From positions 1 through 20,762 of IMG/VR virus record IMGVR_UViG_3300017739_000154: a stretch of 20,762 nt of DNA. The stretch is one strand, 5' to 3'. The stretch comes from a virus. This document shows positions 7,062 through 9,572 of the stretch, one piece after another. Under the pieces are notes generated by a model. That model was not told where the DNA came from, did not search any database, and was given only the letters and a program-made list of their open reading frames with translations. Position 1 is the stretch's first letter, and the number at the start of each line of letters is the position of its first letter. The translations under genes were made by a program, and so were the position numbers.

Positions 7062-8216
7062 TTAAAGGGTATTATCTACAGGCTTTGACCACTTATTATT
7101 CTTATCCTTATAACTAGATACTTTAGGATTATTATGGTTTTTTCTATAAGCCTTAATATAAGTCTTATAAACAAAATTACTATCGGAGTCCCCTAGAGCT
7201 TCAGTCAAATCAAAAGCATTATCATATACACCATCATATGCCCACTTACTTGCAGTCCAATGTCTGAACATATAAGTCTTTCGATTTACAAAGGGATCTA
7301 GGTTATATTTATTTTTCATTATAGCTAGAGCTGCATTAAGTTCAGTCGTCATTCTTTTAAGATCTATAAAGTTACCTCTTGAATTTAAAAATAAATACTC
7401 TTGGTCTTTAGGTAAAGTATTCATATAACTTACAATCTCATCTTTAAAATCTACACCTATTGAAACATCCCTAACACCATTCTCAGTTTTTGTACTTTTG
7501 ATATTCTTATATCTATCTAATGAATTAGTAATTTTATAATATGGATTATTAGCTAAGAGCATAAAGTTCTTACGACTAGCTACTCTAGCTTCACTAGGCC
7601 TACAAGCTGTTTCAGTACATAGCTTAAATATCATTTGTACTGGCTTAGTTTGTACATGACTAATCAGTTCTTGCAGCTTACTGAAGCTCCAAACATTAAA
7701 GTCTATTGTTGCTCTTTTATATTTAGATCTTCTTTTTTCCCAAAAATGTTCAATAACAAATGGTGAACTTTTAGCATAACCTTTAGCTATATTAGTTGCA
7801 TAGATTTTCTTAAATACATGAAATATCTTTTTAATATAGGGTGTTTTATGTGTTAGCTGCTTTTGTTTAATAAAGTCCTTTATCCAGGTAGTATCTATTG
7901 TTTTAAGGTTTATATTACCTAATGTTTCTATGTGGTTTTTATACATAGACTTTTCATCAAGCAAATGACCAATATGTATATCTTGTTCTTTTAGCTTATT
8001 GTTTTGGCCAACATTGAAATAATCATTAGCTGCATCAAATAAAGGTAATACATTTTTATGAGTAAAATTTTCTAATCTATTTTCAATTTGTTGAACTTGT
8101 GTTTTAATATGTTCTTTATTCTTACTTTGAACAGATTGCCATTTACCATTCTCTTGCCAAGTGTAATACCAAGCCCAGCTACCTTTGCCCCATTTTCTTT
8201 TTTTTATATTAGGCAT
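7062..8216 (-). CDS. int: tyrosine recombinase (phage integrase), 384 aa
   Basis: Integrates and, with a partner, excises phage DNA at attP/attB. An N-terminal arm-binding-like domain (WAWYYTWQENGKWQSVQSK, residues ~14-32) precedes a core-binding SAM-like region (~60-160) and the catalytic domain (~170-360). Visible catalytic residues are R206 (TACRPSEAR), a lysine at about 243 (STKTENGVRDVSI), R318 (YMFRHWTAS) and the likely nucleophile Y353 (VYKTYIK). The box II H is Y315, and the usual LGH histidine is D343 (LGDSD), so two histidines are replaced. The start has AGGAGGT six to seven bases upstream and abuts the 219-aa gene. The attP region lies about 0.9 kb away on its 5' side. Confidence 0.93.
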   Translation of the reverse strand: MPNIKKRKWGKGSWAWYYTWQENGKWQSVQSKNKEHIKTQVQQIENRLENFTHKNVLPLFDAANDYFNVGQNNKLKEQDIHIGHLLDEKSMYKNHIETLGNINLKTIDTTWIKDFIKQKQLTHKTPYIKKIFHVFKKIYATNIAKGYAKSSPFVIEHFWEKRRSKYKRATIDFNVWSFSKLQELISHVQTKPVQMIFKLCTETACRPSEARVASRKNFMLLANNPYYKITNSLDRYKNIKSTKTENGVRDVSIGVDFKDEIVSYMNTLPKDQEYLFLNSRGNFIDLKRMTTELNAALAIMKNKYNLDPFVNRKTYMFRHWTASKWAYDGVYDNAFDLTEALGDSDSNFVYKTYIKAYRKNHNNPKVSSYKDKNNKWSKPVDNTL

Positions 8217-8875
8217 TATACTGACCTCCTTTGTTTTAACAGTCTAGTTATAAAAATATAAAGATCTGATTCATAAAACCATTCATTATTTTTCCACTGC
8301 CATTTCATTTCAGCATTTTCATTTATTTTTATATTTAATAAATCTTTTGTGGGTTTATGAGAAAATTCTAATTTAAACTTTTGCCATGCTGTCAAATCAT
8401 TTTTAGATCCAAAAATTTCTTTTTTAGATTTAAGATATGCCTTTCGATTTGGTATTTTACGACCTATACATTTTCTTGCTTCATCCCACATTTTATTTTT
8501 TAAATACCAATAATACATATGGTCTTTCATACATGGTGTACCATCTTTGTTAAAATAACCATCACCATTCTTCAATTCTTTTTCTGTAAATTTTAAAGGT
8601 TTATCTTTTCCAAAAATATAAGAACCCATCAATTGAGATTTATGTCCGTATATTTTTATCTTAATTGGTTTTGGATTTTTCTTTAAAGATACAAAATATT
8701 TTTTTGCAAAATTGATAGCATCCCTATCATTATCAAATCTTTGCTTGTAAGTTCTAACTTGGTATCCTTTGTTTTTTCTTTCATATATTCTGCTGCTATC
8801 TTTTTTAATTATATAAAAGTCATCAAATTGATACATATTACTTGAGTCTTTTTTTAATAAATAATAATTAGTCAT
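8216..8875 (-). CDS. hypothetical protein co-transcribed with integrase, 219 aa
   Basis: I do not recognise a family. It is strongly basic and aromatic. It begins with two similar segments (NYYLLKKDSSNMYQFDDF and FYIIKKDSSRIYERKNKG, residues ~3-38), a short internal repeat that recalls the arm-binding beta-sheet domain of integrases (a DxxGxxY-like hairpin). The middle is Lys-rich, and the C-terminus has KWQWKNNEWFYESDLYIFITRLLK. The start lies about five bases after AAAAAAAAGGA. The gene abuts int, so they form one operon starting beside attP. That placement is where an excisionase or directionality factor often sits, but no known Xis motif supports this. Confidence 0.8.
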   Translation of the reverse strand: MTNYYLLKKDSSNMYQFDDFYIIKKDSSRIYERKNKGYQVRTYKQRFDNDRDAINFAKKYFVSLKKNPKPIKIKIYGHKSQLMGSYIFGKDKPLKFTEKELKNGDGYFNKDGTPCMKDHMYYWYLKNKMWDEARKCIGRKIPNRKAYLKSKKEIFGSKNDLTAWQKFKLEFSHKPTKDLLNIKINENAEMKWQWKNNEWFYESDLYIFITRLLKQRRSV

Positions 8876-8911
8876 TTTCAGTCCTTTTTTTTAATGTTAA
8901 TCAATATACAA

Positions 8912-8940
8912 TAGGTAGCAATTGAGTTGCCATTTGTCAA
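8912..8940 (-). promoter_or_regulatory. possible promoter of the integrase operon
   Basis: On the minus strand, a consensus -35 TTGACA (8940-8935) is followed after 17 bases by TACCTA (8917-8912), a weak -10. TATTGT and TAACAT closer to the gene are alternatives. The spacer contains TGGCAAC (8932-8926), a heptamer also found at the rightward early promoter (2734-2740), so a shared regulator could act here. Confidence 0.35.
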
Positions 8941-8980
8941 TAATAATCAATAGGTATTATGCACAGTAAATGCTGTACAA

Positions 8981-9001
8981 TTTGCACTATATTTGCACTA
9001 T
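8981..9001 (+). repeat. left pair of TTTGCACTAT repeats (candidate integrase arm sites)
   Basis: Two identical TTTGCACTAT copies at 8981-8990 and 8992-9001, 11 bases apart (about one helical turn). The same pair recurs on the other side of the tRNA fragment. Tandem, helically phased decamers flanking a core are the layout of lambda-type arm-binding sites. Confidence 0.6.
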
Positions 9002-9042
9002 GCTTAGTTGAAACTTACAATTTTAAGGTTTATAACAGGCAT

Positions 9043-9081
9043 AAAAAAAATGGCTCTTACAACAAAATCGTTGTAAAAGCC
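9043..9081 (-). terminator. intrinsic terminator of the leftward late operon
   Basis: GGCT-C-TTACAAC (9052-9063) pairs with GTTGTAA-A-AGCC (9070-9081), an 11-bp stem with one mismatch and a six-base loop. On the minus strand it is followed by A and then eight U (9050-9043). This is a standard Rho-independent terminator for leftward transcripts arriving from the small-basic-protein and lysis genes, and it insulates the integrase operon starting at 8875. Confidence 0.75.
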
Positions 9082-9094
9082 TATTATTAAATTT

Positions 9095-9137
9095 GCCCTT
9101 ATAGCTCAATTGGTAGAGCAATTGATTTGTAATCAAT
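9095..9137 (+). other. 5' half of tRNA-Thr (UGU) forming the attP core
   Basis: The fragment contains a full acceptor 5' strand (GCCCTTA, 9095-9101), TA, D-arm (GCTC, AATTGGTA, GAGC; 9104-9119), and an anticodon arm ATTGA-TTTGTAA-TCAAT (9121-9137) with anticodon TGT at 9128-9130. After 9137 there is no variable loop, T-arm or matching acceptor 3' strand, so it is not a working tRNA gene. Position beside the integrase operon and between repeat pairs makes it the likely attP identity block for a host tRNA-Thr gene, with crossover near the anticodon loop. A TATTAT (9082-9087) lies at -10 distance from its 5' end. Confidence 0.7.
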
Positions 9138-9169
9138 AGCCTTAGCCAATTATTCTTTATATATCTTAC

Positions 9170-9233
9170 TTTGCACTTCTATTTGCACTATGGCACAATT
9201 ATGTTTGTGCAACCTAATCGAAACACAGTGCAA
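9170..9233 (+). repeat. right set of TTTGCAC repeats (candidate integrase arm sites)
   Basis: TTTGCACTTC at 9170-9179 and TTTGCACTAT at 9182-9191 repeat the left pair, 12 bases apart. An inverted AGTGCAA lies at 9227-9233 and a palindrome-like TTGTGCAA at 9205-9212. With the left pair they bracket the tRNA fragment, as expected of P and P' arms. The remaining 80 bases to the next gene hold only a weak ATCCAAC...GTTGGAT inverted repeat (9277-9304). Confidence 0.55.
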
Positions 9234-9314: not shown

Positions 9315-9572
9315 TTAAGCAAAAGTTTTAGCTCTTGCTGGTTTCTTACCTCTTTGATTCTTCTGTGCTTTTATCTTCCTACTAATAGCAGATCTTCTCT
9401 GACCTGATGTCATTCTTGCTGCTGTACTAGCTGGGACACATTTTGGGTATTTTCGTTTTGAACCTTTAGCAGATGGTCTGCCACACTTCTTGAAGCCACC
9501 GCCTTTTTTTTTGGATCTTATATCAACCCAATTCTGACTAAACCATTTTGACAGGCCACCTGATCTTTTCAT
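9315..9572 (-). CDS. small basic protein, DUF5872-like, 85 aa
   Basis: The pattern GGLSKWFSQNWVDI...CGR...KRKYPKCVP (residues 5-46) matches a small family seen in marine phages and large algal viruses (I believe DUF5872), of unknown function. The two cysteines sit in KKCGRP and YPKCVP and could bind metal or pair. The C-terminal half is almost all K, R, A and S (RRSAISRKIKAQKNQRGKKPARAK), fitting nucleic-acid binding. It is the last gene of the late leftward operon, ahead of attP and the terminator. Confidence 0.78.
   Translation of the reverse strand: MKRSGGLSKWFSQNWVDIRSKKKGGGFKKCGRPSAKGSKRKYPKCVPASTAARMTSGQRRSAISRKIKAQKNQRGKKPARAKTFA

Follow-up and report, generated by a model that had tools for sequence, protein, structure and literature searches.

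The DNA analysed here, a 20,762-base IMG/VR virus contig referred to below as the window, most probably contains the attachment site (attP) of a temperate SAR11 phage that has as its core the 5' half of a tRNA gene of the host and that would supply the promoter for that tRNA. In the proposed mechanism, the core site of a tyrosine integrase would be the anticodon arm within the host's tRNA-Thr(UGU) gene, and the phage would carry tRNA positions 1 to about 43 in place of the usual 3' half. After crossover in the anticodon loop, one junction would join the host promoter and host 5' half to phage DNA, leaving a dead half gene, and the other would join phage P-arm DNA, the phage 5' half and the host 3' half into a working gene. 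The 219-bp phage P arm would be the sole DNA upstream of that working gene, so the phage would have to supply the promoter. Coordinates of the features are collected in the table.

Features of the proposed attachment site and of one related contig (window positions unless a locus is named)
Feature	Position	Strand	Basis
Tyrosine integrase, 384 aa, stop codon included	7062..8216	-	PHROG phrog_1 'integrase', E 5.8e-23
ORF, 219 aa, no assigned function	8216..8875	-	ORF list; between attP and integrase
P-side arm-type direct repeats, TTTGCACTA x2 (8981, 8992)	8981..9000	+	TTTGCAC counts
Best promoter candidate, TTGAAA-17-TATAAC	9008..9036	+	Direct reading; 10/12 score; inferred function
Intrinsic terminator, 13-bp hairpin 9081-9052 + T8 tail	9042..9081	-	Terminator scan; fold
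TATTAT box, alternative -10	9082..9087	+	-10-like hexamer, poor -35
attP core, tRNA-Thr(UGU) positions 1-45	9095..9139	+	Sequence, Rfam, conservation
Anticodon arm ATTGA-TTTGTAA-TCAAT	9121..9137	+	Ragged block end after 41; short-core relatives
7-base loop, inferred strand-exchange region	9126-9132	+	Inside anticodon arm
P'-side arm-type direct repeats, TTTGCACTT (9170), TTTGCACTA (9182)	9170..9190	+	TTTGCAC counts
Short core	L223:3721	-	Contig IMGVR_UViG_3300025120_000219
Complete tRNA-Thr(UGU)	L284:1498-1573	-	Contig IMGVR_UViG_3300025120_000219, same as L223

The half-tRNA block and the integrase beside it

An earlier note on this DNA had read positions 9095-9137 as the 5' half of tRNA-Thr(UGU) with the T-arm absent, and the sequence, an Rfam match and conservation in other phages all confirm that reading. 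The stretch runs GCCCTTA, TA, GCTC, AATTGGTA, GAGC, A, ATTGA, TTTGTAA and TCAAT, and comprises the acceptor 5' strand, the D-arm and the whole anticodon arm with the anticodon TGT. The AG at 9138-9139 is likewise tRNA-like, and window 9095-9139 corresponds to positions 1-45 of the tRNA (GCCCTTATAGCTCAATTGGTAGAGCAATTGATTTGTAATCAATAG, plus strand); the D-loop has the standard length, so tRNA positions can be counted directly. This block has neither a T-arm nor a 3' acceptor strand. The Rfam tRNA model matches it with 31 bits by bridging 40 unrelated bases to a false 3' end, and ARAGORN finds no tRNA in the whole window. The strict version of a structural scan for half tRNAs gave one match in the window, and the relaxed version gave none in 228 kb of shuffled sequence. 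Rfam matches to mir-450, RAGATH-18 and DLEU2_4 in the window scored far under their cut-offs and were discarded.

The block adjoins a tyrosine recombinase gene and has arm-type repeats on both sides, as expected of a tRNA-targeting attP. It lies 879 nt from the start of the integrase gene, upstream of it and divergent from it. The heptamer TTTGCAC occurs at 8981, 8992, 9170 and 9182, in pairs that enclose the core, and just three more times on both strands of the 20.8 kb; one inverted copy, TTGCACT, is at 9227. Read from the motifs, the succession of arm sites, core and arm sites is the layout of an attP, and together with the divergent integrase and the conservation of the block it supports the earlier note's interpretation as an attP core. 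The 219-aa ORF between the core and the integrase has a 68% identical homologue directly upstream of the integrase in the related loci L167 and L174, and is a candidate accessory recombination or control protein. To the right of the core, leftward genes start at 9315-9572, among them genes for a lysozyme and for virion-like proteins. The window also encodes an MT-A70-type adenine methyltransferase at 855-1400 on the minus strand (Pfam E 2e-32).

The window's integrase is the first sequence of a family alignment (A1) of 14 integrases that are 27 to 51% identical to it. R206, K243, Y315xxR318 and Y353 are invariant in the alignment. The HxxR motif of the window's integrase reads YxxR, with Tyr at the expected His, and the third catalytic His position is Asp in this protein and in nearly all its relatives; because of these two substitutions its activity is uncertain. 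Compared with 50,697 phage records, neither this integrase nor that of the related locus L177 had a match, the L170 integrase had only 22-26% matches among the records listed, and a large protein of the window had none, so by these tests the window phage is not close to any deposited phage.

Conservation and probable crossover in the integrase family

The exact 45-mer is present in five other IMG/VR contigs. In the clade of L003, L005, L006 and L007 the flanks have diverged and the integrases are about 50% identical to the window's, which points to conservation of the block and not to chance. A degenerate scan found 42 contigs, most of them with the half only. An integrase homologue could be detected next to the core in 27 half-tRNA contigs, and in each of them it is encoded on the opposite strand, 5' of the tRNA half and 245-2000 nt from it. 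A search with the A1 alignment returned 80 loci, and the family occurs in many uncultured marine phage contigs. Among the 50 of these with at least 2 kb of DNA upstream of the integrase, 41 have a 5' half and none has a 3' half alone.

By structural scan, the 5' half in the family is mostly that of tRNA-Thr(UGU), and positions 1-41 (window 9095-9135) are the part common to all Thr members. L210, L213, L216 and L220 carry a 5' half of tRNA-Asn(GUU), and the same Asn half is in L221. The attP flanks of L222, which has a Thr half, are near-identical to those of L216 and L210, which have the Asn half, and this looks like a switch of integration target. In two loci with an attP of the same family (L166:6731-6805 and L197:5137-5211) the half is embedded in a complete tRNA-Thr gene whose 3' half is unlike that of SAR11 and in which CCA is not encoded. 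A further group (L214, L215, L241-L243, L254, L255 and L256) has the integrase and the terminator hairpin, and no tRNA core was found in it; the attachment core has possibly been lost there.

The two edges of the block behave differently. In all clusters its 5' edge coincides exactly with tRNA position 1, and its 3' edge is ragged beyond position 41, where ...TAATCA is followed by ATAG, CTAAT, AAAAC or GCAAA. The same ragged end after position 41 is seen at the attL sites of islands in SAR11 genomes, described below. This pattern fits a crossover in the anticodon loop, and the earlier proposal that strands are exchanged in the anticodon arm gains support from both phages and islands. In five relatives (L223, L224, L225, L226 and L253) the core consists of the anticodon arm alone (TGATTTGTAATC and neighbours), D-arm and acceptor being absent, which suggests that this part of the tRNA is all that the integrase family needs. 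Positions 1-26 would then appear to serve a purpose outside recombination, and rebuilding the tRNA is the obvious one.

Complete tRNA genes in related phages suggest two other ways of reading the block. It might be a decayed phage tRNA gene that has lost its 3' half and has no connection with integration, and complete tRNA-Thr genes do occur in some related marine phage contigs (L166, L197 and L223). We find decay scarcely credible, however, because 41-45 nt are undamaged in many diverged phages at a constant place relative to the integrase, and because the window's block sits between arm repeats. The core might also guide recombination only, with the host tRNA destroyed and a phage tRNA gene taking its place. 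This is the tRNA-dependent lysogeny of actinobacteriophages, where phages equipped with a strong promoter can assume the supply of an essential tRNA (PMC10865867). It resembles the mechanism proposed here in that the phage takes over both the supply and the promoter of an essential host tRNA, and differs in that the tRNA is replaced by a whole gene, whereas the window phage would restore the host gene. One relative seems to be arranged in this way: L223, on a 35.7-kb contig, has a short core and a complete tRNA-Thr(UGU) elsewhere on the contig, which by sequence looks like tRNA-dependent lysogeny in a marine phage. It is the one positive case of a short core with a whole tRNA, the remaining short-core contigs being fragments. 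For the window such an arrangement is highly improbable, since it has a 45-nt core and no tRNA gene, keeps the positions 1-26 that the short-core relatives suggest are dispensable for a core, and carries a half that makes a complete tRNA with a SAR11 3' half in simulation. In seven contigs of 31-39 kb with a 5' half, the sole matches to the tRNA model are the halves themselves.

Candidate promoter and terminator upstream of the core

If the 5' half serves to restore a host tRNA gene, the promoter must be within 8876-9094 on the plus strand, because the next upstream gene is transcribed away from the core. The best candidate there, TTGAAA-17-TATAAC, recurs as TTGAAA-17-TATAAT/C in L004 and L170 and as TTGAAA-16-TAGAAT in the L003 clade. 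The earlier note had instead pointed to TATTAT as a box at the right distance. The spacing holds loosely, as the box ends 7 nt ahead of tRNA position 1 and a transcript would start at about position 1. TATTAT is nevertheless the weaker promoter candidate by motif, since the hexamer 17 nt upstream of it, ACAACA, is a 3/6 match to TTGACA, and TTGAAA-17-TATAAC scores 10/12.

The region between the candidates holds an intrinsic terminator that reads leftward. The terminator scan found one against 0.2 expected, the hairpin folds with -18.3 kcal/mol (z -7.5), and a similar hairpin and T tract are at the same place in eight of eight upstream clusters. The terminator would keep late and antisense transcription out of the integrase gene.

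It could be argued that the attP is correctly identified and that there is no dedicated promoter, in which case the AT-rich module would be a late-operon terminator with integrase control, and the tRNA would come from weak or incidental transcription. The hairpin with its T tract is clearly a leftward terminator, AT-rich DNA often yields -10-like boxes, and the box nearest the tRNA in the window has no good -35. A generic consensus promoter scan of the region was also not above chance, with one promoter found against 3.7 expected from shuffles, a scan that is uninformative in DNA this AT-rich. Comparison between phages speaks the other way. A -10-like hexamer (at least 5/6) lies at a fixed place, 6-18 nt before the tRNA, in eight of the eight diverged upstream clusters against 1.6 expected from dinucleotide shuffles, and four of the eight reach a -35/-10 score of at least 9/12 against 0.7 expected, although the clusters are related to one another and these counts are not independent. 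In four clusters TATAAG recurs with TTGNNA 17 nt upstream, its -35 lying inside the terminator hairpin, and TTGAAA-16/17-TAtAAy is kept in the window's clade. An essential tRNA would also need adequate expression. We judge the absence of a dedicated promoter to be unlikely, and the predicted takeover of the host tRNA by a phage promoter to be strongly indicated, with TTGAAA-17-TATAAC as the promoter that may fire in the window.

SAR11 genomes, known systems and what promoter takeover would mean

Among named genomes, a degenerate pattern of the core matches mostly Pelagibacteraceae (SAR11). The earlier note had suggested looking for the 9095-9137 block in host tRNA-Thr(UGU) genes, and such genes were found with one mismatch and not as exact copies. 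The window's 45-mer occurs with one mismatch in 98 of 397 Pelagibacteraceae genomes and exactly in none of the 397, and the exact 43-mer is absent from 84,980 species genomes. In every case listed the mismatch is at position 6, where the host has C and the window T (GCCCTC versus GCCCTT); with a host 3' half, the window's T leaves a G-U pair in the acceptor stem. L170, L189 and L193 carry C at position 6 and match such hosts through position 44. These matches make SAR11 the likely host. When the window's P arm and core were joined in silico to the 3' half of host locus L024, ARAGORN read the resulting attR as tRNA-Thr(TGT) with one G-U pair, and it read no tRNA in the opposite junction, attL.

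Junctions formed by the window's own integrase family were not found. The integrase and the family alignment detected no lysogen in the 397 SAR11 genomes, in searches that had no positive control and that leave room for rare lysogens; the phage promoter-plus-half pattern was absent from the same genomes, and no integrated attR junction with a SAR11 3' half was seen in viral contigs. Junctions of the kind that the earlier note had proposed to look for turned up in SAR11 islands of the same design, and not for the integrase family of the window.

The tRNA site is present in 230 of the 397 SAR11 genomes, and in five genomes the 5' half occurs twice on the same strand, at a spacing of 2.6 to 10 kb. 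With a sixth two-copy case found separately (L086/L132), six SAR11 genomes hold islands built on the 5'-half design, the clearest four being L280, L281, L282 and L283. In these four, the first copy, 65-66 nt past the end of a conserved gene (SpoU/RlmB-like by motif only), still has the native promoter, with foreign DNA after it. A complete tRNA forms the second copy, and the sequence upstream of it is a different one, TTGATTTAnTTGACTTTTAACATTAAAAAC or similar. This second promoter type precedes the full tRNA at 13 SAR11-type loci and is never beside the native neighbour gene, and the native arrangement is found at 47 loci; one of the 13, L107, is labelled as a Flavobacteriales MAG and is probably a misbinned contig. 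The second type stands before SAR11 tRNA-Thr(UGU) in L280, L281 and L283 and at loci such as L008, L027 and L120. It was apparently acquired with islands and then retained. At first sight the L086/L132 case seemed reversed, its full gene having a native-like promoter, and the comparison with L280-L283 places that promoter type on the element side. Judging from these junctions, SAR11 has undergone 5'-half integration accompanied by replacement of the promoter, and they bear out the earlier expectation that integration would part the host tRNA from its own promoter.

The junction evidence comes from islands with an unrelated integrase (L282) or with none detected (L131). The L282 element (L282:5312-13471, 8.2 kb) encodes a tyrosine recombinase, an AAA_25 ATPase and an HTH_17 protein, and has the 5'-half design with the integrase pointing away from the restored tRNA; profile comparison found no relation between its integrase and the phage family. 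L131, from SAR11 AG-422-D23, has minus-strand cores at 1182 and 11260 that bound a 10-kb island with a C5 methylase, a SinI-type restriction enzyme, DUF2779 and PrsW proteins, and no integrase was found among the ORFs examined. TGGTATA repeats beside both of its att sites resemble those of phages L246 and L263, so the island might use a phage integrase in trans.

The view that most tRNA-targeting elements carry the 3' part of the gene agrees with the Islander survey, in which 3760 islands have a displaced 3' fragment and 159 of 3919 a displaced 5' fragment (PMC4383910). Integration into a 5' half is indeed rare, yet its novelty is smaller than the earlier note implied, since pTN3 and bacterial cases are documented (PMC8371274, PMC5495485). 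Recombinant bacterial tRNA genes are expressed from the original promoter with very few exceptions (PMC8371274), and archaeal pTN3-like integrases use the 5' half, the tRNA then being expressed from the integrase promoter (PMC8371274, PMC5495485). As in the window, attP and attB of pTN3-type elements share the 5' half of a tRNA (41 bp in pTN3, anticodon included; Cossu 2017, PMC5495485; PMC8371274), and the restored gene is parted from its original promoter. In pTN3, however, the attP is part of the integrase gene and integration splits that gene, whereas the window's attP is intergenic and its integrase whole and facing away; a separate upstream module, rather than the integrase promoter, would drive the tRNA. 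The window also resembles the Islander 5' class, whose elements restore the 5' part and displace a 5' fragment upstream (PMC4383910). That class is a statistic over integrated islands, whereas here this is the rule within a single phage integrase family, accompanied by a conserved module of terminator and promoter-like sequences. The 5'-half design that both have is seen in the window on the element side, and restoration of the tRNA by simulation only. Tyrosine integrases of the anticodon-loop class (Williams 2002, as described in citing papers) share with the window a core centred on the anticodon arm, a 7-base loop and arm-type repeats on both sides; members of that class usually bring the 3' half and leave the host promoter untouched, the opposite of the window. 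The pelagiphage HTVC019P was considered as a 3'-half contrast and rejected, because it carries a complete tRNA (anticodon GCA). Use of 5' halves by pelagiphages was not found described in the literature searched, key subscription papers on pelagiphage integration lying outside its scope. What appears to be new, from the sequences compared, is the regular use of 5' halves by one phage integrase family, for tRNAs of at least two identities, together with the conserved module of terminator and promoter-like sequences and with natural relatives that have the whole tRNA instead.

We suggest, tentatively, that takeover of the tRNA-Thr(UGU) promoter is a general strategy in SAR11, used by a family of uncultured phages and by unrelated islands, that in a substantial minority of genomes an acquired promoter now stands in place of the native one, and that lysogens would depend on an essential tRNA under phage control. 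The setting is that of SAR11 viruses, whose lysogeny is poorly understood. The 5' half offers a route to host assignment, as a signature of 41-45 nt to which searches aimed at 3' halves would be blind. The family includes natural variants with a 5' half, with a complete tRNA gene, with a short core and a separate tRNA gene, and with a core that may have been lost, and these make the evolution of such strategies testable. With nearly all tRNA-targeting elements the host promoter stays where it is. A family that reverses this as a rule would place phage DNA in control of an essential host gene; lysogens could thereby come to depend on their prophage, and phages could rewire the expression of host tRNA.
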